Below, in pieces: positions 18,461 to 47,216 of a DNA stretch of 64,000 nt (the first letter of the stretch is position 1; every line of letters starts with the position of its first letter). The stretch comes from Ignavibacteria bacterium (GTDB lineage Bacteria > Bacteroidota > Ignavibacteria > Kapaibacteriales > UBA4661). The notes under the pieces are model-generated. The model did no database searches. It saw nothing but the letters and a program-made list of their open reading frames with translations, and had not been told where the DNA came from. The position numbers and the translations under genes were made by a program. The stretch is taken from the NCBI GenBank assembly GCA_013298775.1, contig JAAFIV010000012.1, forward strand, positions 1 to 64,000. Reading direction: 5' to 3'.

Positions 18461-21400
18461 TTAGAATTTGGTGACTTTTTGTGTGAATGTGCGTCCACCT
18501 TCGATAACTTGTACAAAGTATGTACCGTTAGCGAGACCTTCAAGATTAAACTCTTGACGGAATGCGGTGCCAGCAACAACGTTTTGGCTTGAAGCAAGAA
18601 CTTCTTGACCCAAAGCGTTGGTCATCACGATGCGGATTGCGCCTGATTGTTTTGCGGTTGCTTGAACAGCAATACGCTCAACAGCTGGGTTCGGCGATAC
18701 AGTCAAACCGATTTCAGAAGCGTTTGCAACGCTTGTGACGCTGCTGCGTACATAGACGATGAAATCATCTACTGCGAAGCGAGCTTCATCCGGAGTAACT
18801 GTTGTACCGTCGAATGCACGTACTGTAATACGTACACCAGCAGCACGGTTTGTATCTGCGTTTGGTTGTACTGCGTAGAACAACGAAGGACGACCTTGGA
18901 AGCGTGGGTCAGAGTTTACGATGGTTGCTGTAACCTGTGTTGCATCCTCAGAGGTTGCTGAGTATGTCATCGGGTCATAGTTATCATCATAGAACACAAA
19001 ACCTGGGATTCCATCTTCACGCCATTTCGGCGATTCGAGTTCGATGCGGTCTTCTGTTGCAACGTTTGTGCGAGGACGCGGCAAGATTTTGTCTTGGATT
19101 GCGTTGATAAGCACCGGAGGAGCCGGAGCTGGGTCAAGCAACATAACAAATGCCGAATCTCTGCCATCAGCCAAATCGTAAATAGTAGCGTTTTGAGCAT
19201 CTGGGCGGCGAAGTGCGATAATCGCAGCACGCAAACCTTGATAACCCGGTGTACGCGGCCATGCTTGGTCGCTCCAACGAGCGGTAAAGTTTACGCGTTG
19301 TGCTGCGGTACCAGCATCCAAGAAGAATGTACCTGGAACTTGGGTAACGCTTACTGTTTGTTGCGGACGAGCACCAGCCGGAATGATTGGCGACAAGTCA
19401 CCTTGCAAACCGTTGATGAGTACCGGTGTAGCTGCTGGAAGTGCTGGTGTAAATACTGGCACTGGAGTAGCGTTAATCGGTGCTGGCAATGACAATGCTG
19501 GAGCCGGACCTTCGTTGTTCAGAGCAACTGCACGTGCGCCAGGGATACCGGCGGTGCTTGTCGGAGCATTACGTTGGTCAGGGTTAACATTGACATAGGT
19601 AAGTGTATAACCAACCGCGATGTCGTTCGATACTGCTGTGTTCGGGCGTTCGATGCGAACTGAACCGGTTTGGAAACCGTTGTCAGCAGCAGCCATTGTG
19701 TGGCGACGCTCGCGCAAGAGCAACGAGTTTGTCGAGATGCGTTGTGCGCCATTTGCTGGAGCACCGTCTTCACCTGCGTTCGGGATAACAAGGCTAACGC
19801 GTGGTACAGGCAAGAATGTTGTGGTCGCTGTTGTTACCGGCGGAATAGGCTGGAACAACGGACGAGCAACGCCTGTGCTACGAGGAGCTTTGATACCTGG
19901 CAAGTTCGTATCTTCAAAGGTAAGGACAACGTCGTTACCCATCGGATCGATGCTTTGCGGACCGGTCGGATTGAATTGGTTGAAGGTGTACAAGCCATTC
20001 ACAGCAGAACGAGATGTCGTACCAGTAGCTGCATATGGAGCATTGTTAAGCTTCACATACGGATCGTTCGACGGAGTAAATTGGAAATACCCCAATGTCG
20101 GGAACTGAGCCGCTGCAAGCGCACCTTGTGAACGTGGCAAGCCTTGTGCGTTGGTGTAGAAGGTAATGTTTGCAACGTTACCTGTTACAGTGTTCTGACC
20201 GTTATCAACACGGTTGCCGAATTCGTCCACTGCTTGTACGTAGAACCATGTACGCGGATCGCCTTCGTTTGAGCGACCAATGTACATACGCGACGGCATA
20301 CGATTCGGGACATTCATGTTATAGATATCAGGAATGAGTACCGGAGCGATACCAACTGCTGCACCCGGACGGATACAAACAAGTGCTGAGGTAGAGCGTG
20401 GTGAAGAACCACCAACTGCGATACCAGCAACACCAGGTGTGTTACCCGGAACATATGGGTCACCATTCAACACACCAACCGTCAAAGTAACGTTAGCAGC
20501 CGTAGCACCCCATACTTGGAAGTTCGGGAAGGTAGCAACGTTATTGAAGATTTGTGGGTTGTTTGTTGGCGGATAACCAGCACCTGTCGGCAATACAGCC
20601 GGAGATACGCGAGAAGCATTGTTATTTGCTGCTTGGTTAATCAAACCAGTAGAGCTGAACGGCGGCAAGCTGGTCGGAACACCGATGCTTGTAGCCAAGT
20701 CAGCAACTGTACGAGCGATACCAGGAACAGCATTTGACGGTGTGCCATTTACTTCACGACCGAATTTACCAAGACCCCATGTAACAACAGAGGTAGCAAC
20801 GTTGCCAACAACCGGAGTACGGACGTTATCAATCGTTGGGCCACCCAATTGAATGGTAGCTTGTGTTGGGAAGGAAGCATAGTTATCGAAGCGGTCGCGA
20901 ACAAGAACCGCAATGTTTGCATAACCTGGGTCAGAGAATGGGAAGACAACGGGCTGACCAACGACAATGTCGGTCAAGGAACCGTCGAATCCACCAGTTG
21001 CACTACAAACACCCAAAGCACCAAGCGTAATCGCGCCTACACGGCCCGGAGTAGCGTATTGGATATTTTGAGCATTTTGTGTAGCAAAGGTTACACCATA
21101 TGGGAAACCACCTTGAAGTGATACTTGTACAGCCGGACCACCATTACAGAAAGTGATACCACCTTCGGTATTTGGAATCGGGTTAGCACGTGTACCACCG
21201 CGAGCAGCAACGATAGCGTTGTCGAGTGAGCCATATGGACCACCAACAAAGTCATTGCGAAGCGAAAGGGTTACTGTTGTAGAGGCAATACCTTCAAGAC
21301 GAACACCCGCCCACTCAAAGCGACCACCAACTGGTGCGCCAGAAGCAGCGTTTGTTGTCAAACCAGAGTTACCAGCTACTACGCCATATGCGTTACCAGC

Positions 21401-24400
21401 TGCTGCTTCACCAGTGATACCTTCTGAAGCTGCACTAGCACCAACAGCGATAGACGGAACAGGTTGTGTTGGGTCCAAGTTACCAATAACAAGTGAAGCA
21501 CCTGTTGAGAAGTTTGTTGTTGCAACATTACCAAATTCGTCAAGGAGTTCACCAATGATTGTAGCAACCGTCGGAACACCAGCTTTGAACGGACCAACGA
21601 TAGGACCGTAGTTGTTAGCTGTTGCTGGAGCGATACCACCACCAAATTGGGTAGAACCGAAGTTGTTCGGGAAGCGAGGAATATCGCCACCCAAGCCGGT
21701 GCTAAATCCACTGCCTGCGCCGATAGGATCGCCATAGCTACCACCGAAACGCTGACCACGAATTACCAAACATACAGGAGCCGGAATACCGATTGCCCAG
21801 ATGTTGAAACCGCGATTTGGCTCAGGGTTGGTACGGTCTGGAGACAAGCCAGACGCAACAGCACCTTCTGCGAAGTTACCTGTGTTAAGAACCACGTTAC
21901 CGTTTACTGTTTGAGTAGCACCGATAAGGGTCAATTGCTTAACGAAGTTATATGAGTTCGGACCAACCAACAACTGAGCAGCAAGAGCTTGGAACGGTCC
22001 AAGGAATGCTGAGTTCGGGTTTTGGTATTGCAAGCCACCTTGAGCACGGAAGATGTTCAAAGAAGCCGGAGCCAAACCAGCAACCGTACCGTTCTCATTC
22101 AAGAGGTCGGTGTCGATGTATTGCAAGCGGAGTTCTGAACGACCCATTGGGATGTTCAATGTACCGGTTGTTTCGATTTGCCAGTAGCGATCAGCTGTAC
22201 GAACGTTCGGACGGGTTGTGAGTGCACCATGCAAACCAACACCGCGTGTTTGCCAACGGCGAACGCGGAATTGTGCAGGATTACCTGTTTGGTAAATGTG
22301 CGCACCCAAGCCTGCCGGCTCTTCGTTTACTTGGTCGATACCAAGACCTTGGTTCATTGCAGCAACGTTGCGGTGTGATGTAAGACCGATATACGCACGT
22401 ACTGAACGGTTATTGTTGATAACCGAAGAAGGACGAGAAGGATATACTGGTGTTTGATCACCTACACGGCCACCACCATTGTTACCACCGTTTACAAAGC
22501 CGTTCGTGCCGTTGAAAAGGCGCGGAGAGCTTACTTGTACTGGTGTCCAAAGCGGGTTACCGAAAGCAGAATCAGGCAATGCGCCTGCTGTTGCTGACGG
22601 AGAGCCAACATACGGTGTACGCTCGAATGTTTCTACAAGTGTAGAACGGTTACCACCCAATTCGATGTTACGACCGTTCAAGTCGATGTCACCACGAGCA
22701 GTAGCAATTGTACCGTAGATTTGCAAACCAGCAGACTCAGGATTGGTAGCTGTTACGCCACTTGCATCTGGTGTGCCTGGTGTTGTACCGTTTGCTGTGT
22801 TACCAACAAGCGTAAGAACGTTTGTTGTAGCACGCAACCATGTCAAGTGCTGCAAACCACCCGTTACGCGTGGCAAGTCCACGTTCCATGCGTTGTTTGC
22901 ACGAACGATACCTGCATTGTACGCAGAGCTGAACACGGTAGAAGCCGGAGCATTTGCTGTGTTCGACGGATATACTTGGTTATTACCAGAGAATGGAACG
23001 GTAGCTGTACCAACGCGTGCGCTAAAGCCATCTACATAGCTTACGGTTACGAGGTTTTGGTCAGCATCGTTTGTCATTTCAGGACCTGCATTGTAGCGGT
23101 TTGTGCTACCAGCTTGCGGGTTAGCCGCAACGGTGAACGGAGAAATTGCTACGAATGCTGGAGCGATAGATTGGATACCAATAACACCCAAGTTTTGAGA
23201 CAATTCTGTGTTACCAGAGTTTACGTTGTCTGTTGCACCGTATGCTACTGGATACGCGCTCGAACCAGCAAGGTAGTTACCGCTGCCAGCACGTGCTGTT
23301 GCAAGAGCTGCGCCGCTGATTGTACCACCGGTACCGCCAGTGAAGAGAATGTTTGCCAAATCACCACCAACAAGGATACCAGCCAAGTTTGCCGGACCTG
23401 CAGGACCACGCACAACAGCAGGAGCTGTGATGCCAGGGTTTGCAGCTGCGTTACGCAAGCCTACTGGAGACCAGTTGGTGAAACCAGGATATGCATCTGC
23501 GCCAGAAGCCTCAGACAAAAGAACTTGTGCATTTGCATTGTTCACGCCTACTGGTGTGCTAAAGCCTTGAACAGCTGTACCGTAGGTTACATTAGCTTGG
23601 TCAAGTGAAGCAATAGCGGTAGAAGACAATACGAATGTATAGTTGAAGGTAGCAGTGGTACCTGTTGCAGGCTCACTGATACTAGCTGGGATATTTGTGC
23701 TTGGAATGCGAAGCGTACCACGACGAAGCTCAACCAAACCGAAGTTGTTGAAGTCGCCACGACGACCGAAGTCGTTTACTGCTGTCGTCGGGTAGCTGGT
23801 ATTAACAGCACCGGTGAACGACGGACCAGTTACGCGGAATTGTGGGAAACCTGCACGGACACGACCGTCGAATGTACCAGTCAAGGTGTTCGTTGGGCGA
23901 AGACCAGAGCCTGCGGTGTACATGTCGTTTGCAAGCAAGGTGCGTGGGTTTGCAACGTCTGGGCGGGTGTCAATATATGCAGAACCACCAACACCAGGCG
24001 TAATACCCATGCCTACTTGGCTTTGGTTATAGATAGCCGAACCTTGGTACAAACCTGTACGTGGGTCGATAGCATTACGCTGAAGGTTACCGTTGGTTGA
24101 GTTTACATACTCAGGACCGAGAATGATTGTACCGCCTGTTGCGCCATACAATGTTGCTGTTTTGTTACGGAAGTCCAAATCGCCAGTGATAGACGGATAT
24201 TGAACACCAATATCTGTCGCAAGACGATAGTCTGCTGTGCGGATTGGAAGAACTTGAATGGTGTTTGAAGCACCGTTCATAACAAGGTTGTGCGGACCAA
24301 CTGCACCAGCAGGGAACTCTACTTGAGACATGATGTCGCTAGCTTCGGTATCATATTCAAGTGTGGTTGTTGCTGTTGTATTGATGGTGTAGTCATACAA

Positions 24401-27082
24401 GCTGTTGGTGATAACAGGGAAACCAGGGGTAAAGTTACCAGCATTGATACCTGTACCTGCTGCATTCAAACCTGTTGTTACTGGAGCTTGGAGTGTACCG
24501 TTTGCACCACCTGTACCGTTTACACGGTCAAGGGTTTGGCGGATAACACCGTCGAATTGGCTACCAACTGTTTGTGTTACGTATGAACCTGTGTACCATA
24601 CAGCACGTGCGCCATAACCATATTGTGCTTGTGCGCCACCAACTTGGAAGTATGACGGCTCTGCTGGCAAACCGTGCACTACTGCTGGTTTGTTCCATGG
24701 AGACATGTCCAACTGCTCACGGTTGATAGATGCAGAAAGTACCATTGCCATTGGGTACGAATCACCCTCTGGGTACATACGATACATGTCAGCTGTCCAC
24801 AATGTGGTGAATGCACCACCTGTGGTGAAGAACGGACGGGTAGAAGCAGTTGTATAACCTACAAATGCTACTGGGTCAGTATTACCACCATACACAGACC
24901 ACATCGGTTGTGCAATGGTTGTCGAGTTTACGTCATCAAAGGTAGAACCGATAGTTTCAGCACCAGTTGCTGGGTTGAGGCTACCGCGAAGTGTTGTACC
25001 AATGTTGTTTTCTTGACGCAAACCTGTCAAACCTGTACCGCGAAGGTATGCAAGAGCTGGGAAATAACCAGCTTTTGACCAGTTTTGTGTACGGGTTGCA
25101 CCGTCAGACAATTCACCACCAAATGCTTGTTGCATATAGTATGGTACGCCTGTTGCAATGTTTGCACCGTTCAGTACGTTAACACCTGATGGATAGGTTG
25201 CAGTACGAACACCTGTACGTGCCAAACCTTGGAAGATAAGACCACGAGAGATGGTAACGGTTGTTACAGGCAAGAATTTCGTGCCTGAACCACGGAATAC
25301 CAAGTGTGCATACGCAGCTGTGGTAGAAGGCTGCCAAAGAGCTGCCGTACCAATACCAAGACCTGCTGGTGTTGTACCGTACTGACCGAGTGTACCCGGA
25401 GACGGGTCACCAGGTTGAATAGCAGCAGCAACAGTAGCATTACCAGAATGATAGTTATTATTGAATGGGTCATACAAACCATTCTCACCACCATGAACCT
25501 GTACACCACCCGCAGCTGCGGCAAGTGTAGTAGTGTTCAGGACTGGACCGTTCGGGTTAAACGACAAGAACGGAGAGTTTTCTACCAAGTTCTGATCAGC
25601 GGTACGAGAGTAGATAACTGTACCGTTGAAGCGAACGTCAGCAGCAGACAATGTACCTACAACGCCTGCAAAATCCAACGCGCCACCTTCTTCAACAACG
25701 AAGTAACGCATACGAGAGGTTACTGCATATTCTTGACCTACTGGGGTCATCGGAATAGCGCGACCTGAAGCTGCGGCGATAGCTAAATCTGTAAAGCCCC
25801 AAGCCGCAGGTTGTGTAGAACCAAAACGGTTAGCAAAGCTTACAAGCGGTACAGCGGTACGACCGATGTTACCATTACCAGACATACGAAGAATAGCATT
25901 ATTCATAATCTGGATAGAACCAGAAGTAACTGCACCCTCGTTAGCCAAGAGAGCTTCACCGCGGAAGTTTACTGTACCACGACGAATTTGAATAATACCA
26001 GCTGTAAACGAACCTTCGAGTGTACCCACAGCGGTGGACGGGTCATCGCCCGGACCGGTGAAGAGGTCAGTCGTAAAGTTACGATCAACTACACGACCAA
26101 GGTCGAAAATAGCTGTCCAGAACGAGTTACGTCCCATCAAGCCACGGAAGTTATTGATACGGTCAGCATTAACAGCTGCGCCAACACCTGGGAAAGTAAT
26201 ACCAGCACCAGAGAGATCGGCACCAGCACCATTACCATTAAACGCGGTGTTGTCGAAGTAACCTGTTTGCGTAGCAAGAGTGGTTGACCATTCTTGCGCT
26301 TGCGTAATTGTACGTGTGCGACCACGGAATACGATTGTAGAACCGGTACCGATTGTCGCAGCCGTAACTTGAATATTCGCATCACGGTCGGTCAAATCAC
26401 TAGCAGCACCCGCATAGTAGCGGAGCTTACCATAGACACGCAACTCCATGTTACGTGGTTGCGGAACGTTACCACCAGCTGGCTCCAAGTCGATTGCGCG
26501 AACAGGAGCAATATTCAACGCACCACTATTGATAAGGGTGCTGTTGTTTGCCAAGTAAATATCCTGGTCGCCAATGATATTGAGACCAGAACCTTGGAAA
26601 ATACTTGGACGCTGCGAAATGCGACCACCAAAGCGGTCACCATCGTACTTATCAACACCAGCAACGATACGACCAGGCACAGAGCCCCACGTTGTCGTTA
26701 CCGACGCAGCAGTGTTGATGTGCAAGTCATTGATTTCCAAGAACGCCCACGCCTGCGAACCATTGTAAGAAATGGTGTTCGCAACGTTAGCGCGTGTAGC
26801 AATGATGGTGTGGTTTGTTTCGATGAAAGCGTTGGTTGCCGCATTCGGAATACCAACAGAAACATCAGAATTCACCCAAGTACCAGAACGATAGACCTGC
26901 CACGTGGTCAAGTCTACCCAACGGCCGGAACCCCGCGTACGGAAGTCACGGCTCTCGCCCCCAACCTCAGACTGCGCATTACCTTGCGCGAATGTAAGGC
27001 TCGGTGCCGCCACCAAAAGCGCAGCCAAAACAACAAGCAAAGCGCTTGCAGACTGACGCAATTTTGCGATAGCAAAACTCAT
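18461..27082 (-). CDS. Giant T9SS-secreted surface protein (2873 aa)
   Basis: A signal peptide (SALLVVLAALLVAAPSLTFA) leads into a G8/beta-helix-like opening (RGSGRWVDLTTWQVYRSGTW). About 1,800 residues of Gly/Asn/Thr/Ala-rich, beta-solenoid-looking sequence follow. Three Ig-like modules then carry an invasin/filamin-type D-x-F-x-N motif: LLDEFGNVATT near 1850, VRDRFDNYASF near 2060 and AVDEFGNRVDN near 2290. The last 85 residues are a type A T9SS sorting domain (LTVSPNPAVERIAV ... LANGTYFVQVIEGGRTFTQKV). It should be exported by Sec, pass the outer membrane through T9SS and be anchored or released at the surface. Cys is almost absent (about four residues). There is no enzyme motif; adhesion, matrix or S-layer-like roles are inferred. 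The gene is single, has its own terminator and a structured upstream region. Confidence 0.9.
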   Translation of the reverse strand: MSFAIAKLRQSASALLVVLAALLVAAPSLTFAQGNAQSEVGGESRDFRTRGSGRWVDLTTWQVYRSGTWVNSDVSVGIPNAATNAFIETNHTIIATRANVANTISYNGSQAWAFLEINDLHINTAASVTTTWGSVPGRIVAGVDKYDGDRFGGRISQRPSIFQGSGLNIIGDQDIYLANNSTLINSGALNIAPVRAIDLEPAGGNVPQPRNMELRVYGKLRYYAGAASDLTDRDANIQVTAATIGTGSTIVFRGRTRTITQAQEWSTTLATQTGYFDNTAFNGNGAGADLSGAGITFPGVGAAVNADRINNFRGLMGRNSFWTAIFDLGRVVDRNFTTDLFTGPGDDPSTAVGTLEGSFTAGIIQIRRGTVNFRGEALLANEGAVTSGSIQIMNNAILRMSGNGNIGRTAVPLVSFANRFGSTQPAAWGFTDLAIAAASGRAIPMTPVGQEYAVTSRMRYFVVEEGGALDFAGVVGTLSAADVRFNGTVIYSRTADQNLVENSPFLSFNPNGPVLNTTTLAAAAGGVQVHGGENGLYDPFNNNYHSGNATVAAAIQPGDPSPGTLGQYGTTPAGLGIGTAALWQPSTTAAYAHLVFRGSGTKFLPVTTVTISRGLIFQGLARTGVRTATYPSGVNVLNGANIATGVPYYMQQAFGGELSDGATRTQNWSKAGYFPALAYLRGTGLTGLRQENNIGTTLRGSLNPATGAETIGSTFDDVNSTTIAQPMWSVYGGNTDPVAFVGYTTASTRPFFTTGGAFTTLWTADMYRMYPEGDSYPMAMVLSASINREQLDMSPWNKPAVVHGLPAEPSYFQVGGAQAQYGYGARAVWYTGSYVTQTVGSQFDGVIRQTLDRVNGTGGANGTLQAPVTTGLNAAGTGINAGNFTPGFPVITNSLYDYTINTTATTTLEYDTEASDIMSQVEFPAGAVGPHNLVMNGASNTIQVLPIRTADYRLATDIGVQYPSITGDLDFRNKTATLYGATGGTIILGPEYVNSTNGNLQRNAIDPRTGLYQGSAIYNQSQVGMGITPGVGGSAYIDTRPDVANPRTLLANDMYTAGSGLRPTNTLTGTFDGRVRAGFPQFRVTGPSFTGAVNTSYPTTAVNDFGRRGDFNNFGLVELRRGTLRIPSTNIPASISEPATGTTATFNYTFVLSSTAIASLDQANVTYGTAVQGFSTPVGVNNANAQVLLSEASGADAYPGFTNWSPVGLRNAAANPGITAPAVVRGPAGPANLAGILVGGDLANILFTGGTGGTISGAALATARAGSGNYLAGSSAYPVAYGATDNVNSGNTELSQNLGVIGIQSIAPAFVAISPFTVAANPQAGSTNRYNAGPEMTNDADQNLVTVSYVDGFSARVGTATVPFSGNNQVYPSNTANAPASTVFSSAYNAGIVRANNAWNVDLPRVTGGLQHLTWLRATTNVLTLVGNTANGTTPGTPDASGVTATNPESAGLQIYGTIATARGDIDLNGRNIELGGNRSTLVETFERTPYVGSPSATAGALPDSAFGNPLWTPVQVSSPRLFNGTNGFVNGGNNGGGRVGDQTPVYPSRPSSVINNNRSVRAYIGLTSHRNVAAMNQGLGIDQVNEEPAGLGAHIYQTGNPAQFRVRRWQTRGVGLHGALTTRPNVRTADRYWQIETTGTLNIPMGRSELRLQYIDTDLLNENGTVAGLAPASLNIFRAQGGLQYQNPNSAFLGPFQALAAQLLVGPNSYNFVKQLTLIGATQTVNGNVVLNTGNFAEGAVASGLSPDRTNPEPNRGFNIWAIGIPAPVCLVIRGQRFGGSYGDPIGAGSGFSTGLGGDIPRFPNNFGSTQFGGGIAPATANNYGPIVGPFKAGVPTVATIIGELLDEFGNVATTNFSTGASLVIGNLDPTQPVPSIAVGASAASEGITGEAAAGNAYGVVAGNSGLTTNAASGAPVGGRFEWAGVRLEGIASTTVTLSLRNDFVGGPYGSLDNAIVAARGGTRANPIPNTEGGITFCNGGPAVQVSLQGGFPYGVTFATQNAQNIQYATPGRVGAITLGALGVCSATGGFDGSLTDIVVGQPVVFPFSDPGYANIAVLVRDRFDNYASFPTQATIQLGGPTIDNVRTPVVGNVATSVVTWGLGKFGREVNGTPSNAVPGIARTVADLATSIGVPTSLPPFSSTGLINQAANNNASRVSPAVLPTGAGYPPTNNPQIFNNVATFPNFQVWGATAANVTLTVGVLNGDPYVPGNTPGVAGIAVGGSSPRSTSALVCIRPGAAVGIAPVLIPDIYNMNVPNRMPSRMYIGRSNEGDPRTWFYVQAVDEFGNRVDNGQNTVTGNVANITFYTNAQGLPRSQGALAAAQFPTLGYFQFTPSNDPYVKLNNAPYAATGTTSRSAVNGLYTFNQFNPTGPQSIDPMGNDVVLTFEDTNLPGIKAPRSTGVARPLFQPIPPVTTATTTFLPVPRVSLVIPNAGEDGAPANGAQRISTNSLLLRERRHTMAAADNGFQTGSVRIERPNTAVSNDIAVGYTLTYVNVNPDQRNAPTSTAGIPGARAVALNNEGPAPALSLPAPINATPVPVFTPALPAATPVLINGLQGDLSPIIPAGARPQQTVSVTQVPGTFFLDAGTAAQRVNFTARWSDQAWPRTPGYQGLRAAIIALRRPDAQNATIYDLADGRDSAFVMLLDPAPAPPVLINAIQDKILPRPRTNVATEDRIELESPKWREDGIPGFVFYDDNYDPMTYSATSEDATQVTATIVNSDPRFQGRPSLFYAVQPNADTNRAAGVRITVRAFDGTTVTPDEARFAVDDFIVYVRSSVTSVANASEIGLTVSPNPAVERIAVQATAKQSGAIRIVMTNALGQEVLASSQNVVAGTAFRQEFNLEGLANGTYFVQVIEGGRTFTQKVTKF

Positions 27083-35021: not shown

Positions 35022-37850
35022 ATGAACTCTGAACAACAGCATCAACCTGGCGCACATACGCTTTCGGGCGAAAAGCCACAAGACCGCACGGACACTCATT
35101 CTGAGAAGAAACATGCGGTTTTTGCTGCGGCGGAGAAAATCTCTATGCCGCAAGTATTGGTCTGCCATGTTGCGGCGATGGACGTTTCTAATGGTGCAGA
35201 TGCGCAATTTTTCGACCATTGGATGCCGCCAGAGACGAACAACCATATTTTGGGCGCACTCGGACGGCGTATTTGCTTGGTGGATGAGCGTTTTTCGCGC
35301 GGCGAGGAATTGAAAGCATTGGTCCATTCCTTCCAAATACCGCATGAATACGACTCTGGCACGACCGTCCGCCTGTGGTACGAAAGCATCAAAGATTGGT
35401 TCAATGAGCAAGAATGGTCGGAAGAAGACGTGCAACATTTCAACGTCATTGTTGCCTTGCTCCGCCGCGATGCCGTGCAGGCACTGGAGTTTGGACAAGC
35501 GCAAATGCGTATTTCCTCGAATCGTTTACGCTTAAAAAATGTTATCTCGCTTGATGGCGCACGGGAATTCTTCCAAGACCGCATCAAAGCTCGTTTACAG
35601 AGGAAAGTAACAGGGAAAGAATTTTTTACACGCGAACAATGGTCGTGGAATAGCCGCGAACACCAGATTTCATGCCGCTTTGAAGAAACAATGCTGCAAG
35701 GCGTTACGCGCTGTTTGGGTCTGGCAAGCGATATTTGGCTGCCCAGCGAAATAGAAACACTGGTGCGCACGGGTAGCGAGGCAACGGGTTCGCGGAAAAA
35801 TGTGTGCGAAGAAACGCGTCAAGCCTTCGGCATTATTGGTCAAAGACCTCGTGGGAGCGTGATGGTGGTGGATATTCTCCCGCAAGAGCTGGACACGCCA
35901 GATTTGGATGAAGTCGTGAAAGCCGTGAAAAATGCTCGCCGCGCATCGAAAGTGGGCAAAGCGGTAAAAGGTGCGAAAGCGGCTTCCAATGCCAGTAAAA
36001 GCACCGCAGGGCTTGCAGGCAAGGTCATTGCTGGCTTGATGCTCGTGGGCGCAGTTGTGGCGGGCGCGGCAGTGGTGAAGGCAATTTACGACCGATACCA
36101 CATACCGCAAACGGACCGTACCGCATTTGAAGAAGAAGAGCGCAGACGATTGGCTGAAAACCAAGCAAACGCGCCCTTACCAGAAAATACAATCGCCAAC
36201 GCAGCCAACGCACTCGATACCGCAAGCCTGAACCCAAATTCCCTGATAGCAAGCGATACGCTCGGCTTGAAGCCAAGCACCACGCCGCCGACGGGCAAAG
36301 AAGTGTGGTTCAATGAAGATTTTTACCGTCGAAATCGAGAAATACTCTTGCGTGGCGATTTCAAGGAAGTTCCGTTTGTTGTGAAGGAATTTCCAACGCG
36401 TTTTATCAGCTTTGCCGCGCAGCAAACCACGTTTATCCCGATTGCGCTTATTCGCTCTACCTTGTTTCGAGCCGAAAATATTCGCGTAGAAGTTCTGCCC
36501 TATTCTGGAGCTGCGCTCGCGGCGGCAACAACGCCAAACCCCTCAAAAACCGCTCCACAGCTTGCTTCTACAAAAAATACGCCTATTGCTACAAATAAAC
36601 TTACAACAAACAAACTCGCTGCGGCAAAGGCTGTACCCGTGAAAAAATCACCCTTCGACGGACTTTTTCGCATTGACAAACAGCCCCAAGCGACCAATGG
36701 CACACAGAACGTAGCACGCAACAGCCGCAATGCTTTGAAAGTGAGCAGGGATAAGGAGACTGAGTACGGCAAAGATAGCTCAGGAGGCGCACCACCACTT
36801 GCGAAGAAGCAATTAGCCAGCACAAATGCCAAAGAAGCCACCGTGCCAAAAAGCACGATGCCGAAACCACCGCAAATCCAGCAAGTAACGCGCTACGGCA
36901 TTTTGTTCGATAAGCCTTTTCCGATTGGACGCTACATTGTGAAGCTCTACCACACGGAAAAAGGGCAGCCCGACACGTCCGTTTGCGAGTGGCGCGTGAT
37001 TGAAAGTCCTTTTACGAAGCCCTCTCTGAAGTCCATGCAGACCGCAAAATTTTACTACGGAAAGCCGCTTTCGCTGAGAGCAAAGCTCGTTCCAGAGCTG
37101 CTGGATTTCTACACAAGTGGGACGAATAATTTCCGTGTGCGCTATCAATTTGGCGTGGAAAGCCCACATTCTACGGGCTTTACGCCTAACACGTGGACAG
37201 GTCCATTTATTCCAGCATTTGCAAAAAAAATGAATCTGGAAGTCGTCTGGGTGGACACGCTGAGTAATTACACCGTTCCGCTTTTTGTTCGCGAAGTAAC
37301 GCCAGAACAAACGCCGCCAGACATTCTCTGCGCTGATGCCCGCGCCGAATCCGACGACGCAGACGCGCTTCGCAAGGCACCGAGCAGCAAGAAAGCAGTA
37401 CCACCGCCCAATTTCAATATCGCTCTCAAAGGTATCAGTGTTGATTTTGAAGTTCCCATTGATGCGGATAATAAAGACCCCAAAAGAAGCAAAAGTGTGA
37501 AAGCCACGCTCACGGAAATCGAAGTGGATGCACCAGCAGAAATCAACTTCAATACGCCCGACACACGGCTTGGAATCTTTAACGGCGAAGAACCCGACCC
37601 TAAGGCTCCATGGGAGGCAAACGCCACAAACTTCAAAGTTGTGAATGGCGCATTCGACCCAAAAACTGGCACATTTCCCATCACAATTTTGGTCAGCAAT
37701 TTACCGCCCAAACCGCCCGCCGAAACACGCACCTTGCGGGGAACAATCTCGGTGAAAGCATCCGCGAAAATTGTTAATCGCCTCGCAAGCGTATCGGCGC
37801 GGTCGGGAACAGCCGAGTGCTTAGTGCCGATTAACATTACGTACAAGTAA
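35022..37850 (+). CDS. Unrecognised 942-aa single-TM protein upstream of a pseudokinase
   Basis: I do not recognise a family. Residues 1-290 look globular and cytoplasmic. A helical stretch at about 75-160 (RGEELKALVHSF ... EEDVQHFNVIVALLRRD) has some feel of an effector-associated adaptor domain, but this is weak. A basic linker (KAVKNARRASKVGKAVKGAK) leads to one membrane segment (about 335-357, VIAGLMLVGAVVAGAAVV). The outer 580 residues are beta-rich with Ser/Lys/Asn-rich low-complexity parts. They contain Ig-like stretches (GRYIVKLYHTEKGQPD, TEIEVDAPAEINFNTPDTRL). The next gene encodes a protein with the same layout: cytoplasmic domain, TM and long low-complexity exterior. The two may work together. 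The start is ATG 35022; there is no signal peptide. Confidence 0.7.
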   Translation: MNSEQQHQPGAHTLSGEKPQDRTDTHSEKKHAVFAAAEKISMPQVLVCHVAAMDVSNGADAQFFDHWMPPETNNHILGALGRRICLVDERFSRGEELKALVHSFQIPHEYDSGTTVRLWYESIKDWFNEQEWSEEDVQHFNVIVALLRRDAVQALEFGQAQMRISSNRLRLKNVISLDGAREFFQDRIKARLQRKVTGKEFFTREQWSWNSREHQISCRFEETMLQGVTRCLGLASDIWLPSEIETLVRTGSEATGSRKNVCEETRQAFGIIGQRPRGSVMVVDILPQELDTPDLDEVVKAVKNARRASKVGKAVKGAKAASNASKSTAGLAGKVIAGLMLVGAVVAGAAVVKAIYDRYHIPQTDRTAFEEEERRRLAENQANAPLPENTIANAANALDTASLNPNSLIASDTLGLKPSTTPPTGKEVWFNEDFYRRNREILLRGDFKEVPFVVKEFPTRFISFAAQQTTFIPIALIRSTLFRAENIRVEVLPYSGAALAAATTPNPSKTAPQLASTKNTPIATNKLTTNKLAAAKAVPVKKSPFDGLFRIDKQPQATNGTQNVARNSRNALKVSRDKETEYGKDSSGGAPPLAKKQLASTNAKEATVPKSTMPKPPQIQQVTRYGILFDKPFPIGRYIVKLYHTEKGQPDTSVCEWRVIESPFTKPSLKSMQTAKFYYGKPLSLRAKLVPELLDFYTSGTNNFRVRYQFGVESPHSTGFTPNTWTGPFIPAFAKKMNLEVVWVDTLSNYTVPLFVREVTPEQTPPDILCADARAESDDADALRKAPSSKKAVPPPNFNIALKGISVDFEVPIDADNKDPKRSKSVKATLTEIEVDAPAEINFNTPDTRLGIFNGEEPDPKAPWEANATNFKVVNGAFDPKTGTFPITILVSNLPPKPPAETRTLRGTISVKASAKIVNRLASVSARSGTAECLVPINITYK

Positions 37851-38081: not shown

Positions 38082-41000
38082 ATGGCAGACAAAGTACAAC
38101 ACTACACACTGGGAGACCGCATCGGGACTGGCGGTACAGGCACAGTGCGCCGCGCACGTTTTACGGGTGAGCGCGAAGAACAACGTAAAAAAAACACGAT
38201 TGACACGGAAAAACAGGGGCTAAAAAAGCAAGCAGAGAGTAAGCAAACAGAGAGTAAGCAAGCAGAGAGCAAGCAAACAGAAAACAAACAAGCAGACAAG
38301 AAACAAGCAGACAAGAAACAATCCGAGAAAACGCTTGGGAAAGAAATATTCGGCAAAGAAACGCAGCGCAAGGAAAGGTCAGCACCAGAGAAGATTTCTG
38401 CACCAAAAGGCGAGCTTGTCATCAAAACCTTGCAGCCCGATATTGCTCGCGACCCTGTAACGCGCAAGCGGCTTCTTTCCTCGCGAAAACAGCTTCAATC
38501 GGTTCCGCAGCAAGAGAACTTGGCGCGGGTGTTGGACATTCTTGAGCAAGGCGATACGCTCCACGTTCTGATGGAATACGCACCCGGAAAATCGCTTGAA
38601 AGCTCGCTTGGGCGTAAATCTCGCCCGATGCCACAAGAAACCGCCGTGCAGATTTTGAATCAAGTTTTACGCGGCGCAGTGGCGGCGCATGGGAAAGGTG
38701 TGTTGCATGGAAATTTGAAACCAAGCGATATTCTTCTCCAGCAAACGGGCGCAGAAACAAGCGTGAAAGTCTCAGGCTTTGGCGTGGCGCAGCACGTAAG
38801 TAATGCGGCTCTTTTGCGAGCTGCGGGACGCTCTCAAACTCTGCCCTATCTCGCACCAGAACAAGTGCGCGGCGAAGTTGCCGACGAGCGCACCGATGTG
38901 TACAGCGCGGGCATGATGCTCTACCGAATGCTGACAGGAAAACTCCCCTACGCAAGCAGCGAACGCGGCGCAGAAGCACGCATTCGCCATGCTATTTTGA
39001 ATGAGCCGTTGCCGGATATTGCTGAGGTGATGCCAGAAATCAGCTTCTCACCACAGCTCTTGGCAATTGTCCGCCGTGCGCTGGCAAAAGAACGCCGTGA
39101 ACGTATTCCTACGATGCGAGATTTTTCGCGCCTCGTGCAAAAAGTACAAGCGGAATTACCATCGGTAACGCTTCCAGCAAGTACCACCAACATTGCACAA
39201 AAACAGACCGCACAAAAACAGGCTGTTGCGACAAGTGCCGTTGCTATCAGCGCAGCCGCTCCCGCTCTTGCGAGCGCAGCATTACAATTTCCACCGCCAC
39301 CAACGCCAATTGAGCAACAAGTTTCTGTAATGGAGCCAGTGCGCAGTTTTGCGGCTTCTGAGCCAACTGCAAGCATTGGTACATCCTCCGCACCGCAAGC
39401 AATACCGCCACAGGCTACATCAACGCAAGCAGTATCACCACAAGCTGCACCGCCACAAGCTGCACCACCAGTGGTTGAGGAAAAAGAAAAATCATTTTGG
39501 AATATTCTGACGAATCCAGGTGATATTACCACACCAGCTGCCGCCGGCGCACCAACACTGACGAAATCGGCTGCGGAACTTGAAGTAGAACGCCGAATGC
39601 AAGCACTCCGAGCCAGCACTGCGGCGGCGGCAATGGCTTCGGCGGTACAAGATTCACCAGCTCAAAGCATTGCTACTCAAAGCATTACTGCTCAAAATAC
39701 TGCGTCTCCAAGTGTGGTAGCTCAAGATTCAGTCTCACAAGAATCAAGTATTCAAGCGGTTTCTACGCCAAGCCCTTCTACGCCTGTTTCTTCTGCACCA
39801 TCCTTTGCTGCACCATCCTTCGCTGCACCGCGTCCGATTGCACCGAGCATTCCGCCATCGTCGGCTCCGATTGCGAGTGTGCAAACGCCATTGTACGCGC
39901 CAGAGACAAAGAAAAAACGCTCTGCTCTGCCGTGGTTGGTCGTCGGCGCATTGGCACTGGGCGGTGGCGTATATTACGTTGCACTGAAAAACAAACTACC
40001 GTTTGGCACGGGCATATCAAAAGGCTCAGAGGGCGCATCGCAACAAGCCTTGAGCAAAGAAGAACTTGACCAGCAATACGATTCGCTTGCGAATACCACT
40101 CCCAACGCAACCACCCCAAACGCCAGTAAAGAAGCAGCTTCTACGGCAAAAGAAGAAGTGCCAAACCAAGAAATACCAAACCAAGAAATACCGACTCAAG
40201 AAACATCACCGCAAGAACAATCTTCCACGTCTTCTCTCCCACAAGAGGCGCAGAAACAAGCTGCAAACACAGCTTCAAAGGCAACTTCTGACAAGCCTCT
40301 CCAAACAACACAAGCAGAAAAAACATCTGGTACAGCATCAGAATTGACGGATGCACCGAAAACAAACGCGCCAAAAGCAAACACGCCGAAAGCAGCACAA
40401 AACCTTGCTGCGGAGAAGAAATCGGAAGAGAAAACTGTTCAACCAAGTACAAAAAAAGAACGCCCGCAGATTGCAGCTCTTTCTCCAAAGCCAGTAACTA
40501 CACCATCATCCGAAGGAAGCAGCACCACGCTTCGTAAGGAAAAACGAGTAGGAAAAACACAGGGAACATCAGAACGCACGCCGTACAGCACCAGTAATGA
40601 TGCGGTGAGCAAGAAAGAGCCAGCAAGTACAGTTTCTAAAGAATCACCCAAAGAAAGCACCAAAGAAAGCACCAAAGAATCATCCTCGAAAAGCGGCTCA
40701 CTTTCTGCGTACAATGCGGCGCAGGATGCCGAGCGCGAGGCAGCACGGGCGAAAATCAAGGAAAAGTATTCAACACATTTAAGCAAGAAACAACGCACTG
40801 CTGAGACGCAAAAACTCGCTGTGAATGACACCAAAAGCGATGGAAAAACAGAAGAAAAAAGCGGTGGCAAGAGCGTTCCAGCTGCATTGAAAAATCTGAA
40901 TACACAAAGCGCAAGCAAACAAAGCACAAGTAAGCAAGTTGCACGCACAAACCGCGAAGACAACTACACGCCGTCACAAAATCCCGTTGATGTAACGAAT

Positions 41001-41432
41001 GAAATTGACCCCAGCACCACCGCACTGGAGAGCGCATCACGCAAGGCAAGCGGCACAGAGCCGTACTTGATTTTGCGCGGACACGTCGGCACGGTACGCT
41101 CGGTTTCCTTCAGCCCAGATGGTAAACTCATCGCAAGCGGCAGCGAGGATAAAACGGTGAAAATTTGGGATGTCGCAACAGGCACCATTCTACGCTCCAT
41201 TCGCGGACACGGGAACTCGGTAACGTCTGTATTTTTCAGCCCCGACAGCAAGTTTGTGATTAGCAGCAGCAAAGATAAAACCGTGCGCATTTGGGATGTG
41301 GAAACAGGAAATGCTATCCAACGCTCGCCGGGTGTGTCGTGCGAGGGAAGTCCCGCAGCGTTCAGCCCCGATGGTAGCTTTATCGCAACTGCGAATAATC
41401 GCAATGTGAATATTGCGAAAGTGCAGAAATAA
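38082..41432 (+). CDS. Membrane pseudokinase of the Ser/Thr kinase (Hanks) fold with C-terminal WD40 segment
   Basis: 1116 aa. The kinase fold runs from the Gly loop (IGTGGTGTV, residues 14-22) to about 365. Lys115 sits in LVIKTL and the APE motif is LPYLAPEQVRG. The alpha-F segment reads DERTDVYSAGMMLYRMLTG. Two catalytic elements are lost. HRD is His209-Gly210-Asn211 in HGNLKPSD, so the catalytic Asp is Asn and the later Asn is Asp216. DFG is Gly232-Phe-Gly. Between the Gly loop and Lys115 is a charged insertion with seven KQxxx pentapeptides. A Pro/Ala/Ser/Gln-rich linker leads to a membrane segment (about 616-636). About 360 residues of low-complexity Lys/Glu/Ser/Thr sequence follow, then three WD40 repeats (998-1116; HVGTVRSVSFSPDGKLIASG, DKTVKIWDVATG). 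It likely signals by binding rather than phosphorylation. Confidence 0.87.
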   Translation: MADKVQHYTLGDRIGTGGTGTVRRARFTGEREEQRKKNTIDTEKQGLKKQAESKQTESKQAESKQTENKQADKKQADKKQSEKTLGKEIFGKETQRKERSAPEKISAPKGELVIKTLQPDIARDPVTRKRLLSSRKQLQSVPQQENLARVLDILEQGDTLHVLMEYAPGKSLESSLGRKSRPMPQETAVQILNQVLRGAVAAHGKGVLHGNLKPSDILLQQTGAETSVKVSGFGVAQHVSNAALLRAAGRSQTLPYLAPEQVRGEVADERTDVYSAGMMLYRMLTGKLPYASSERGAEARIRHAILNEPLPDIAEVMPEISFSPQLLAIVRRALAKERRERIPTMRDFSRLVQKVQAELPSVTLPASTTNIAQKQTAQKQAVATSAVAISAAAPALASAALQFPPPPTPIEQQVSVMEPVRSFAASEPTASIGTSSAPQAIPPQATSTQAVSPQAAPPQAAPPVVEEKEKSFWNILTNPGDITTPAAAGAPTLTKSAAELEVERRMQALRASTAAAAMASAVQDSPAQSIATQSITAQNTASPSVVAQDSVSQESSIQAVSTPSPSTPVSSAPSFAAPSFAAPRPIAPSIPPSSAPIASVQTPLYAPETKKKRSALPWLVVGALALGGGVYYVALKNKLPFGTGISKGSEGASQQALSKEELDQQYDSLANTTPNATTPNASKEAASTAKEEVPNQEIPNQEIPTQETSPQEQSSTSSLPQEAQKQAANTASKATSDKPLQTTQAEKTSGTASELTDAPKTNAPKANTPKAAQNLAAEKKSEEKTVQPSTKKERPQIAALSPKPVTTPSSEGSSTTLRKEKRVGKTQGTSERTPYSTSNDAVSKKEPASTVSKESPKESTKESTKESSSKSGSLSAYNAAQDAEREAARAKIKEKYSTHLSKKQRTAETQKLAVNDTKSDGKTEEKSGGKSVPAALKNLNTQSASKQSTSKQVARTNREDNYTPSQNPVDVTNEIDPSTTALESASRKASGTEPYLILRGHVGTVRSVSFSPDGKLIASGSEDKTVKIWDVATGTILRSIRGHGNSVTSVFFSPDSKFVISSSKDKTVRIWDVETGNAIQRSPGVSCEGSPAAFSPDGSFIATANNRNVNIAKVQK
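38226..38330 (+). repeat. 15-base coding tandem repeat, seven copies
   Basis: The repeat encodes the pentapeptides KQAES, KQTES, KQAES, KQTEN, KQADK, KQADK and KQSEK (residues 49-83). It lies inside the N-lobe of the pseudokinase, between the Gly-rich loop and the ATP-contacting Lys. Confidence 0.93.
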
Positions 41433-44627: not shown

Positions 44628-47216
44628 ATGAAACAAGCTACGAAACAACGTCTGTACACGCTTTTAGCAGCAGTATTGCTGGGCGGCATTGTTTATGCTA
44701 CCTCGCAGCCGCTTGGAAAATTACCCGTTCTTTCGCTGTTTCTCGACCCTTGGAATGGTGCATACCGAACTGCCCGCAATGCGCATGAAAGCTCATCTTT
44801 GAGGGAATTATCCATTCCCGGACTACGCGGCGAAGTGCGTATTTACCGCGATGCTCGCAACGTTCCGCACATCATCGCCGAAAATGATATTGATGCTGTT
44901 GCCGCGCTTGGTTACTTGACCGCCCGCGACCGCTTATTTCAAATTGACTTCCAAACCCGCGTGGCGGCTGGGCGTTTGTCGGAAATATTCGGCGCAGAGC
45001 GCATCAAAACGGACCAATTCCTCCGCAGAACAGGAATGATGCTGGGTGCAGAACGGACGTGGGAAAAAGTTCAACGAGAAAATTCGGAGGTGAAAAATGT
45101 GCTGGAAGCCTTCACAAGCGGCGCAAATGCGTACATTTCGAGCCTTTCGCCGAATGATTATCCGTTTGAGTGCCGCTTGCTTGGGTACGCGCCCGAAGCG
45201 TGGTCGCCGCTCAAGTGTATTCTCATCAATCAGCTCATGGCATACGATTTAACCTTTCCCATGACCGATATTGTGATGGAAGAAACACGCAAAAAGCTGG
45301 GAGACAGCGCGTTTGCTACCTTGTACCCGAATCATGCTCCAATAAGCATTCCGCAAAGCCCCGAAGAACGAGGCTTGGTGCGCCCTGCAAGCAATCCACT
45401 TTCGCCGCAGTACCAAACACAACAACAAGCACAGAAACAACAATCAGATATTGCAAAAAACTCCACAAGCCGCGCTATTACTGAGCTTTTGGCAATGCAC
45501 CGCGACGTTTCTACGCTCTTCGGCGAAGCAGCCGAAGGCAAAGGCAGCAACAACTGGGTTGTGAGCGGCACGAAAACACGCTCGCAGAAGCCGCTCCTTG
45601 CTGGAGACCCGCATCTTTCCTTGTCGTTGCCAGCAATTTGGTACGAAGTACAGATGATAACGCCGACGATGAATATGTACGGCGCGACAATTCCAGGCGC
45701 ACCGCTCATCATTGTTGGCGCGAATGACCATCTGGCGTGGTCGCCGACCAATACTGGTGCGGATGTGGTTGATTTTTACACCGTGCAGTTTCAAAATGCG
45801 CAGCAGGAACAGTATTGGCACAATGGCGCGTGGAAGAAGGTAGAGAGCCGTATTCAGCCAATTCGTGTAAAAGGGCAGACGGATGTGCAAGATACGATGC
45901 GCTTCACGCACTGGGGTCCCGTTATGACCGTTGATGCCGAAACCCCACGCGAGCAGAGCCTTTCGGTGCGCTGGACAGCGCATGAAGCCTCAACGATTTT
46001 GAGTGCGCTGTGGGGAATGAATCATGCGAAAAATCTGGCGGAATTTGCAACGGCGCATAAAAACTGGGATGTTCCCGCGCAAAACATCGTCTATGCCGAC
46101 AAGCAAGGAAATATCGCCCTTCGCAGCTTCGGGCATTATCCCGTGCGCAAATGCGGGCATGGGCGCGGCATCCACGACGGCAGCACCGATGCGGGCGCGT
46201 GGATTGGGCGTGTGCCGCTTGATTCCGTACCAGGCAGTATCAATCCTGCCGCCGCATTTTTGGAATCCGCAAACCAAGACCCCGTGCCGCCGACCTACCC
46301 ATACTACCTCAACTACAACTGGGGCGACCTCTGGCGCGGTGCGCGTATTGCCGAATATCTCCAAAGCTCACAAAACCTTACGCCAGAGGATTTCGAGCGT
46401 TTTCAAACCGACGTAAAGGTGATGCAATGGGCGTTTATCAAGGAAAGCATTCAAAAACTAAAATGCGAGGAAGAATGCACGGGCGCGAAAAAACAAGCAA
46501 TGGAGCGGCTTCTGGCATGGAACGGCATTGCCGACACGACCAACCAAGCTGCTTTGCTTTTTCACACCTTCACGCGCCTTTTGCGCCGTGCGGTGTGGGA
46601 TGAAATGCTCGTGGAGAATATTGATGTACAAAAAAATGCGGCAAAAGGCACAAGCGATACTGTACGGAGCAAGGATTTACGCGGCAATCCAAGCGACCCC
46701 ATGATGTGGTATTTGCTGAAAAATGAACCCAATTCCGTGTGGTTGGACAATCGCGCAACGCCAGAGCGTGAGAACGCAGACATAGTGCTGAAAACCGCAC
46801 TGTTACAGGCATTGGACACGCTCGTGGCTGATTATGGCACAAATCCTGAAGGCTGGACGTGGGGACGCAATCACAAACTTATCATTCGCCATCTCACCCG
46901 CGCCGAGCCGCTTAAATCCTTGTGGCGCGGACCATTTCCTTTCGTCGGCGCACAAGCAACAGTGCTGCCTGCGGGTTCGTTGCTGACGACGCACAGCGCA
47001 AGTTGGCGGATGGTGGTGGATTTCGCAAGCGGCAAACCGCGTGTTTCTGCGGTGTATCCAGGCGGTCCGTCGGGGAATCCTTTTAGCAAATGGTACGATT
47101 CACAAATTTCCACGTGGCTGAATGGCAAGCTCTACGCCACTGAGCAATCAGCATCGGAAGAAAGCTGTAAGCAAGGAAATATGAGACTTTCGGAGAATTT
47201 GCGTCCTGCGAAATAA
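44628..47216 (+). CDS. Penicillin-acylase-family (Ntn-hydrolase, peptidase S45) enzyme
   Basis: 862 aa. An N-terminal membrane or signal segment (LYTLLAAVLLGGIVYATSQPL) is followed by GEVRIYRDARNVPHIIAEND and AALGYLTARDRLFQIDFQTR, the typical alpha-chain start. The autocatalytic cleavage site is GKGSNNWVVSGTKT, with Ser307 as the N-terminal nucleophile of the mature beta chain. Later come LLAGDPHLSLSLPAIWYEVQ, GAPLIIVGANDHLAWSPTNT and VDFYTVQF, the oxyanion and substrate-pocket blocks. Relatives hydrolyse acyl amides such as penicillins, N-acyl homoserine lactones or other amides in the periplasm. Which one is not visible here. It is followed by the convergent yciO gene. Confidence 0.92.
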   Translation: MKQATKQRLYTLLAAVLLGGIVYATSQPLGKLPVLSLFLDPWNGAYRTARNAHESSSLRELSIPGLRGEVRIYRDARNVPHIIAENDIDAVAALGYLTARDRLFQIDFQTRVAAGRLSEIFGAERIKTDQFLRRTGMMLGAERTWEKVQRENSEVKNVLEAFTSGANAYISSLSPNDYPFECRLLGYAPEAWSPLKCILINQLMAYDLTFPMTDIVMEETRKKLGDSAFATLYPNHAPISIPQSPEERGLVRPASNPLSPQYQTQQQAQKQQSDIAKNSTSRAITELLAMHRDVSTLFGEAAEGKGSNNWVVSGTKTRSQKPLLAGDPHLSLSLPAIWYEVQMITPTMNMYGATIPGAPLIIVGANDHLAWSPTNTGADVVDFYTVQFQNAQQEQYWHNGAWKKVESRIQPIRVKGQTDVQDTMRFTHWGPVMTVDAETPREQSLSVRWTAHEASTILSALWGMNHAKNLAEFATAHKNWDVPAQNIVYADKQGNIALRSFGHYPVRKCGHGRGIHDGSTDAGAWIGRVPLDSVPGSINPAAAFLESANQDPVPPTYPYYLNYNWGDLWRGARIAEYLQSSQNLTPEDFERFQTDVKVMQWAFIKESIQKLKCEEECTGAKKQAMERLLAWNGIADTTNQAALLFHTFTRLLRRAVWDEMLVENIDVQKNAAKGTSDTVRSKDLRGNPSDPMMWYLLKNEPNSVWLDNRATPERENADIVLKTALLQALDTLVADYGTNPEGWTWGRNHKLIIRHLTRAEPLKSLWRGPFPFVGAQATVLPAGSLLTTHSASWRMVVDFASGKPRVSAVYPGGPSGNPFSKWYDSQISTWLNGKLYATEQSASEESCKQGNMRLSENLRPAK

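Follow-up and report, generated by a model that had tools for sequence, protein, structure and literature searches.

The locus considered here raises the question of what a membrane protein can do that has kept the frame of a protein kinase but has lost both catalytic aspartates. Bacterial pseudokinases are largely unstudied (PMC12599244). The gene resides in a 64,000-nucleotide stretch of an Ignavibacteria genome (the window), and the coordinates and residue numbers given for it in an earlier interpretation made from the letters alone (the sequence-only reading) proved to be exact. Its N-terminal part comprises the following features:

38082 to 41432, plus strand: pseudokinase gene, 1116 amino acids, single copy in nine of ten genomes of the Kapaibacterium family
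38124 to 38141, plus strand: Gly loop GTGGTG, residues G15 to G20 (G15-x-G17-x-x-G20), Gly residues invariant across the family
38169 to 38405, plus strand: insert rich in Lys, Glu and Gln, placed between beta2 and beta3 and shared by this species with its nearest relative (G005) alone
38406 to 39152, plus strand: kinase domain proper, residues 109 to 357 (Pfam Pkinase, AlphaFold, Foldseek, dN/dS)
38424 to 38426, plus strand: Lys115 of beta3 (in LVIK), retained by all family members
38706 to 38729, plus strand: degenerate catalytic loop H209-G-N-L-K-P-S-D216, reading HRDxKPxN in active kinases
38775 to 38783, plus strand: GFG, residues 232 to 234, replacing DFG, invariant across the family
38853 to 38861, plus strand: APE motif (A258-P259-E260), from sequence and alignment

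The N-terminal domain was recognized as Pfam Pkinase (E = 9e-33 in the Pfam profile search), with PknB-type kinases as its best sequence matches. For the structure prediction proposed along with the sequence-only reading, AlphaFold yielded a kinase domain with a mean pLDDT of 87.9, mostly above 90, and the closest solved structures retrieved by Foldseek were PknB and PknI from M. tuberculosis and PknB from S. aureus, with TM-scores by target of 0.76–0.86. Profile and predicted structure thus agree on a Hanks-type (PknB-like) kinase fold. PknI has itself been described as pseudokinase-like, and the pseudokinase CASK was found among the first 50 Foldseek matches. The insert in the N-lobe spans 80 residues built from KQAES/KQTES repeat units and is modeled as a helix (residues 30–67) followed by a low-confidence, unstructured portion.

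The Gly loop, Lys115 and the APE motif at residues 258–260 are present exactly where the sequence-only reading had placed them, and its assignment of the HRD motif to His209-Gly-Asn211 and of the DFG motif to Gly232-Phe-Gly was borne out by alignment with bacterial Hanks kinases. In HMMER alignments to solved PknB and StkP structures, HGN falls on HRD and GFG on DFG. Column 211 is occupied by Asp in 29 out of 29 bacterial kinases from other lineages and by N, N, N, N, N, G, S and N in eight aligned family members, while column 232 holds Asp in the same 29 and Gly in all eight. A further 28 kinases from the same phylum all feature HRD and DFG, such that both aspartates are present in each of the 57 other kinases that were aligned or checked for motifs. 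A different alignment register concealing the missing residues was rejected, as neither the HMMER nor the multi-kinase alignments offer a true HRD or DFG Asp elsewhere in the domain. Among the residues expected of a competent kinase, only the beta3 Lys (K115) is left, and with two out of three, the HRD Asp and the DFG Asp, being absent, the protein conforms to the sequence definition of a pseudokinase.

The Asn of HRDxxxxN is Asn in 29 out of 29 outsiders and Asp216 in all eight aligned members, and an acidic side chain is retained in this way at one metal-binding position. The sequence-only reading had held that loss of both aspartates should abolish phosphotransfer and Mg binding. As far as can be judged from sequence, a membrane pseudokinase devoid of normal phosphotransfer is well supported, whereas the statement on Mg binding was too strong because, with an invariant Asp at the Mg-binding Asn position, metal binding need not be lost. 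The invariant new Asp216 together with GFG suggests a selected pocket rather than drift, and this could be taken to indicate that the kinase fold performs a different chemistry, e.g., AMP transfer or glutamylation, resembling SelO or SidJ. We consider this extremely improbable, as both SelO and SidJ retain an Asp at the DFG position (DYG, DLG; PMC12599244, Table 1) where Gly is found here. Activity of a CASK-like, atypical kind, i.e., phosphotransfer without the DFG Asp and perhaps without cations, also has to be weighed. Nucleotide binding is poorly predicted from sequence alone, and CASK, which lacks the DFG Asp and possesses Gly loop and Lys, is active, phosphorylating in a cation-free manner and being inhibited by cations (PMC4718504); Asp216 could assume some role in such a case. 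That the HRD Asp is missing as well, at a position that drifts among N, G and S unlike a catalytic residue, renders this alternative very unlikely.

Orthologs were searched for in 61 related genomes. One full-length ortholog each occurs in all eight genomes of the genus, the source genome included, although a contig end truncates the G001 copy. Of the two other genera of the family, one likewise has an ortholog, and the family genome without a match is 70% complete. The named records of the family are Candidatus Kapaibacterium and Ignavibacteria metagenome-assembled genomes. Both aspartates are missing in nine out of nine orthologs, with HGN, HGG or HGS at the first motif and invariant GFG at the second. 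Retained residues include, besides the Gly-loop glycines and the Lys, the HRD-His, the Lys of HRDxK, Phe-Gly of GFG, the APE Glu, Asp272 of alpha-F and Arg341. In a tree of 65 sequences, the family forms a single clade (support 100/100), whose long stem measures 1.01 changes per site, among kinases containing HRD and DFG, and its monophyly combined with the absence of both residues from all members is most simply explained by a single loss in the ancestor.

Codon comparison of the kinase domain resulted in dN/dS values of 0.09 (source vs. G005) and 0.05 (G004 vs. G006), and not one amino-acid change was found between G004 and G002 over 246 codons at a dS of 0.34. Such strong purifying selection indicates that the dead domain is maintained and functional and is not decaying. 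A pseudogene was rejected based on dN/dS values well below 1 and the absence of stops, and a sequencing error because identical motif losses are present in nine separate assemblies. Selection on the Gly loop and Lys115 fits nucleotide binding, and the loss of the DFG Asp suggests that such binding would be Mg-weak or Mg-independent, as in MLKL, STRAD-alpha or CASK (PMC4718504). The Glu of alpha-C is absent from this species, where S134 takes its place, and from G005; in most members the register is ambiguous at this position, and only the absence from these two is firm. Its loss in this species would be in line with a pure structural scaffold like EssB/YukC, in which the kinase fold binds no nucleotide and serves an envelope complex only as a platform for binding proteins, and YukC indeed follows the plan of a membrane pseudokinase with a dimerizing outer domain (PMC9600267). 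We regard this explanation as possible but doubtful, given that all family members preserve the Gly loop and the beta3 Lys, while EssB/YukC have lost the Gly loop along with all three motifs (PMC12599244), and that no T7SS or other conserved secretion genes were seen beside the pseudokinase gene.

Most telling with regard to function are two features not mentioned in the sequence-only reading, the truncated three-blade WD40 module located beyond the membrane and a genome that lacks a recognizable stand-alone partner kinase. The part of the protein following the kinase domain is organized as follows:

39153 to 39917, plus strand: Ala/Ser/Pro-rich cytoplasmic linker by composition, fast evolving (dN/dS 0.27–0.56)
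39924 to 39992, plus strand: single transmembrane segment, about residues 615 to 637, preceded by KKKR (hydropathy, charges), conserved in the genus
40008 to 41006, plus strand: Ser/Lys/Ala/Thr/Glu-rich periplasmic linker of about 330 residues (composition, codon comparison), fast evolving
41007 to 41429, plus strand: short helix, then three WD40 blades in d-abc order, forming the C-terminus (Pfam WD40, AlphaFold, dN/dS)
41340 to 41342, plus strand: Cys1087 in degenerate blade 3, sole Cys of the 1116-residue protein, invariant in full-length orthologs

The KKKR sequence before the single transmembrane segment points to a topology with the kinase domain in the cytoplasm and the C-terminus in the periplasm. 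With a dN/dS of about 0.03, the WD40 part is the most conserved region of the protein, compared to 0.2–0.56 for the linkers. The module spans 141 residues, is modeled with a pLDDT of 91.5 (AlphaFold) and shares 52–94% identity among orthologs, with the chain terminating after the same blade in all complete ones. Blade 3 is degenerate, yet it contains GVSC-x-G-x-PAAFSPDG with the invariant Cys, and no full-length member has a second cysteine anywhere in the chain; Cys1087 might form a disulfide or act as a redox site. The chain holds three blades and not the seven of a complete WD40 propeller. Within 500 bases after the stop, no further blade is present in the source genome and seven relatives, and loss of additional blades by frameshift was therefore rejected. 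The model resembles the propellers of WRAP and of PkwA, the latter at 39% to 5YZV (Foldseek), but the superpositions, while covering most of the module, are loose (rmsd 8–9 Å). The modeled monomer might thus be under strain, and the single-copy model is not to be taken as the true shape.

Completion of propellers in trans is known in eukaryotes, e.g., for Sec13/Sec31, and the three blades might likewise complete the ring of another protein instead of pairing with themselves. We judge this decidedly unlikely, since the further WD40 proteins examined in the source genome are many-bladed and mixed propeller fragments gave only homo-oligomers in vitro (PMC6805158). Propellers comprise four to twelve blades, and three-blade constructs of PkwA form dimers whereas those of WRAP form trimers, i.e., a nine-bladed ring (PMC6805158). 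By analogy with these isolated constructs, self-assembly or oligomerization appears as the best-supported role of the module.

Allosteric regulation of kinases is a frequent role of eukaryotic pseudokinases, and activation or inhibition of a partner Ser/Thr kinase in the style of STRAD or JAK JH2 would be the usual expectation. In the family genomes, however, profile searches, on which all genome-wide statements made here rest, revealed no recognizable stand-alone PknB-type kinase. Of the nine family genomes containing the pseudokinase, eight have it as their top Pkinase match, and in the source genome it ranks second (113.7 vs. 115.9 bits). The remaining matches in the family genomes lie in long open frames of 839–1843 codons or short fragments; in G005, which is 96% complete, the sole other match is a fragment of 52 residues. 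Three other matches exist in the source genome, all of them multi-domain fusions of COG3899/AAA type; two are kinase-ATPase-histidine-kinase fusions, the third being a degenerate kinase with AAA and helix-turn-helix parts. Profile searches of the same genome returned no match to FHA or PP2C_2 but nine SpoIIE phosphatase domains. With other kinase matches confined to long open frames and short fragments, a partner-kinase role is highly improbable, and explanation by regulation of a sister kinase is nearly closed.

A conserved neighbor that would name a pathway was not found beside the pseudokinase genes. An FAA hydrolase gene is located directly upstream in six of the seven other orthologs, and the seventh, that of G001, shows the same order on a short contig, but it is not a neighbor in the source genome and G005, and a functional link as operon partner was dropped on these grounds. 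In the latter two, the gene adjoins an orphan (35022–37850, plus strand) for a protein of 942 residues with a single transmembrane segment, a pairing restricted to these genomes. The orphan is without Pfam match, and its C-terminal 320 or so residues recur in several paralogs per genome across the Kapaibacterium family. Other proteins seen in the window are one of 2873 residues (18461–27082, minus strand), in which a type IX secretion sorting tail is the sole part recognized by Pfam, and a penicillin amidase family protein of 862 residues (44628–47216, plus strand). Elsewhere in the genome, the frame around 33173 (G000:C45:27000-40000) encodes 1183 residues in which another kinase domain, more degenerate than the first, is fused to AAA and Fis-like parts. 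G000:C50:1-8000 encodes a protein of 1329 residues that combines numerous WD40 blades with a caspase-like domain and a long coiled coil, and G004 has a close relative of this protein.

Taken together, we give an even chance to a catalytically dead Hanks-type domain that serves as a membrane signaling scaffold or switch. The cytoplasmic pseudokinase would probably still use its Gly loop and Lys115 to bind nucleotide, needing Mg barely or not at all, and would offer a binding surface to a cytoplasmic partner without phosphorylating it. The three periplasmic blades, unable to close a ring alone, would assemble across copies, either as a dimer of six or as a trimer of nine blades, and this assembly would set the oligomeric state and gather the pseudokinase domains across the membrane via the long flexible linkers. 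Nucleotide binding, oligomeric state, topology and scaffold role are what we infer in this scheme. Against the scaffold or switch speak S134 in place of the alpha-C Glu, the degenerate blade 3, the loose superposition of the module, the want of a conserved neighbor naming a pathway and the fact that the oligomer is argued by analogy from designed constructs. A more far-reaching version, which we put forward only tentatively and consider rather unlikely, would be a natural transmembrane receptor found throughout the lineage, with a periplasmic three-blade WD40 module that is obligately oligomeric and controls a nucleotide-binding pseudokinase whose metal site is replaced by Asp216 and GFG, in genomes without a stand-alone PknB-type kinase. 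If true, this would represent kinase-fold signaling without phosphorylation. In any case, the family is small, conserved and well defined by a single loss of both catalytic aspartates, and it provides a natural candidate for sub-ring oligomeric WD40 propellers, which have so far been made in the laboratory from PkwA and WRAP fragments; the module is short enough for direct testing.

Among eukaryotic pseudokinases, CASK has an intact HRD Asp, unlike the protein studied here, and neither CASK nor MLKL is known to have a WD40 part. The likeness to the two is one of analogy only. MLKL exhibits noncanonical HRD and DFG motifs, keeps the Lys and binds ATP only in the absence of cations, and CASK shares the missing DFG Asp (PMC4718504). 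Seven families of bacterial pseudokinases are described in a 2025 review, namely ActPs1-3, GLW, CP1, DYD and DLHK, with classes in which either all three motifs or the ATP- and metal-binding motifs are divergent (PMC12599244). They resemble the present family in being bacterial Ser/Thr pseudokinases conserved as families, but belong to another phylum, and the pattern with Lys kept and both aspartates lost is found in none of them according to these descriptions (PMC12599244). Lys and Gly loop set it apart from ActPs1-3 and GLW with three divergent motifs, the transmembrane segment and WD40 module from CP1 with its COG3899 ATPase fusion and no transmembrane segment, and the lost HRD Asp and the transmembrane segment from DLHK (PMC12599244). 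Neither an ATPase nor a PASTA domain is among the best 25 of the 35 Pfam families matched by the protein. In the open-licence literature, we found no papers on this pseudokinase family or on Kapabacteria kinases.

EssB/YukC of type VIIb secretion likewise combine a membrane pseudokinase with an extracytoplasmic dimerizing part (PMC9600267), but the outer domain is unrelated. PknB/StkP of M. tuberculosis, S. aureus and S. pneumoniae share with the protein a cytoplasmic kinase fold, a single transmembrane segment and an extracytoplasmic repeat domain; they differ in having the HRD and DFG aspartates and PASTA repeats where three WD40 blades and very long linkers are found here. The PASTA kinase model NF033483 matched the kinase part only (158.9 bits vs. 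the whole-protein score of more than 450 required). To our knowledge, and going by open-licence papers, the combination of a pseudokinase with a three-blade module is undescribed, while kinase-WD40 proteins as such are already known: PkwA from Thermomonospora curvata also consists of an N-terminal kinase domain and C-terminal WD40 blades that are near in sequence, but its seven blades form a closed ring (PMC6805158), compared to three blades and a dead kinase in the present family.
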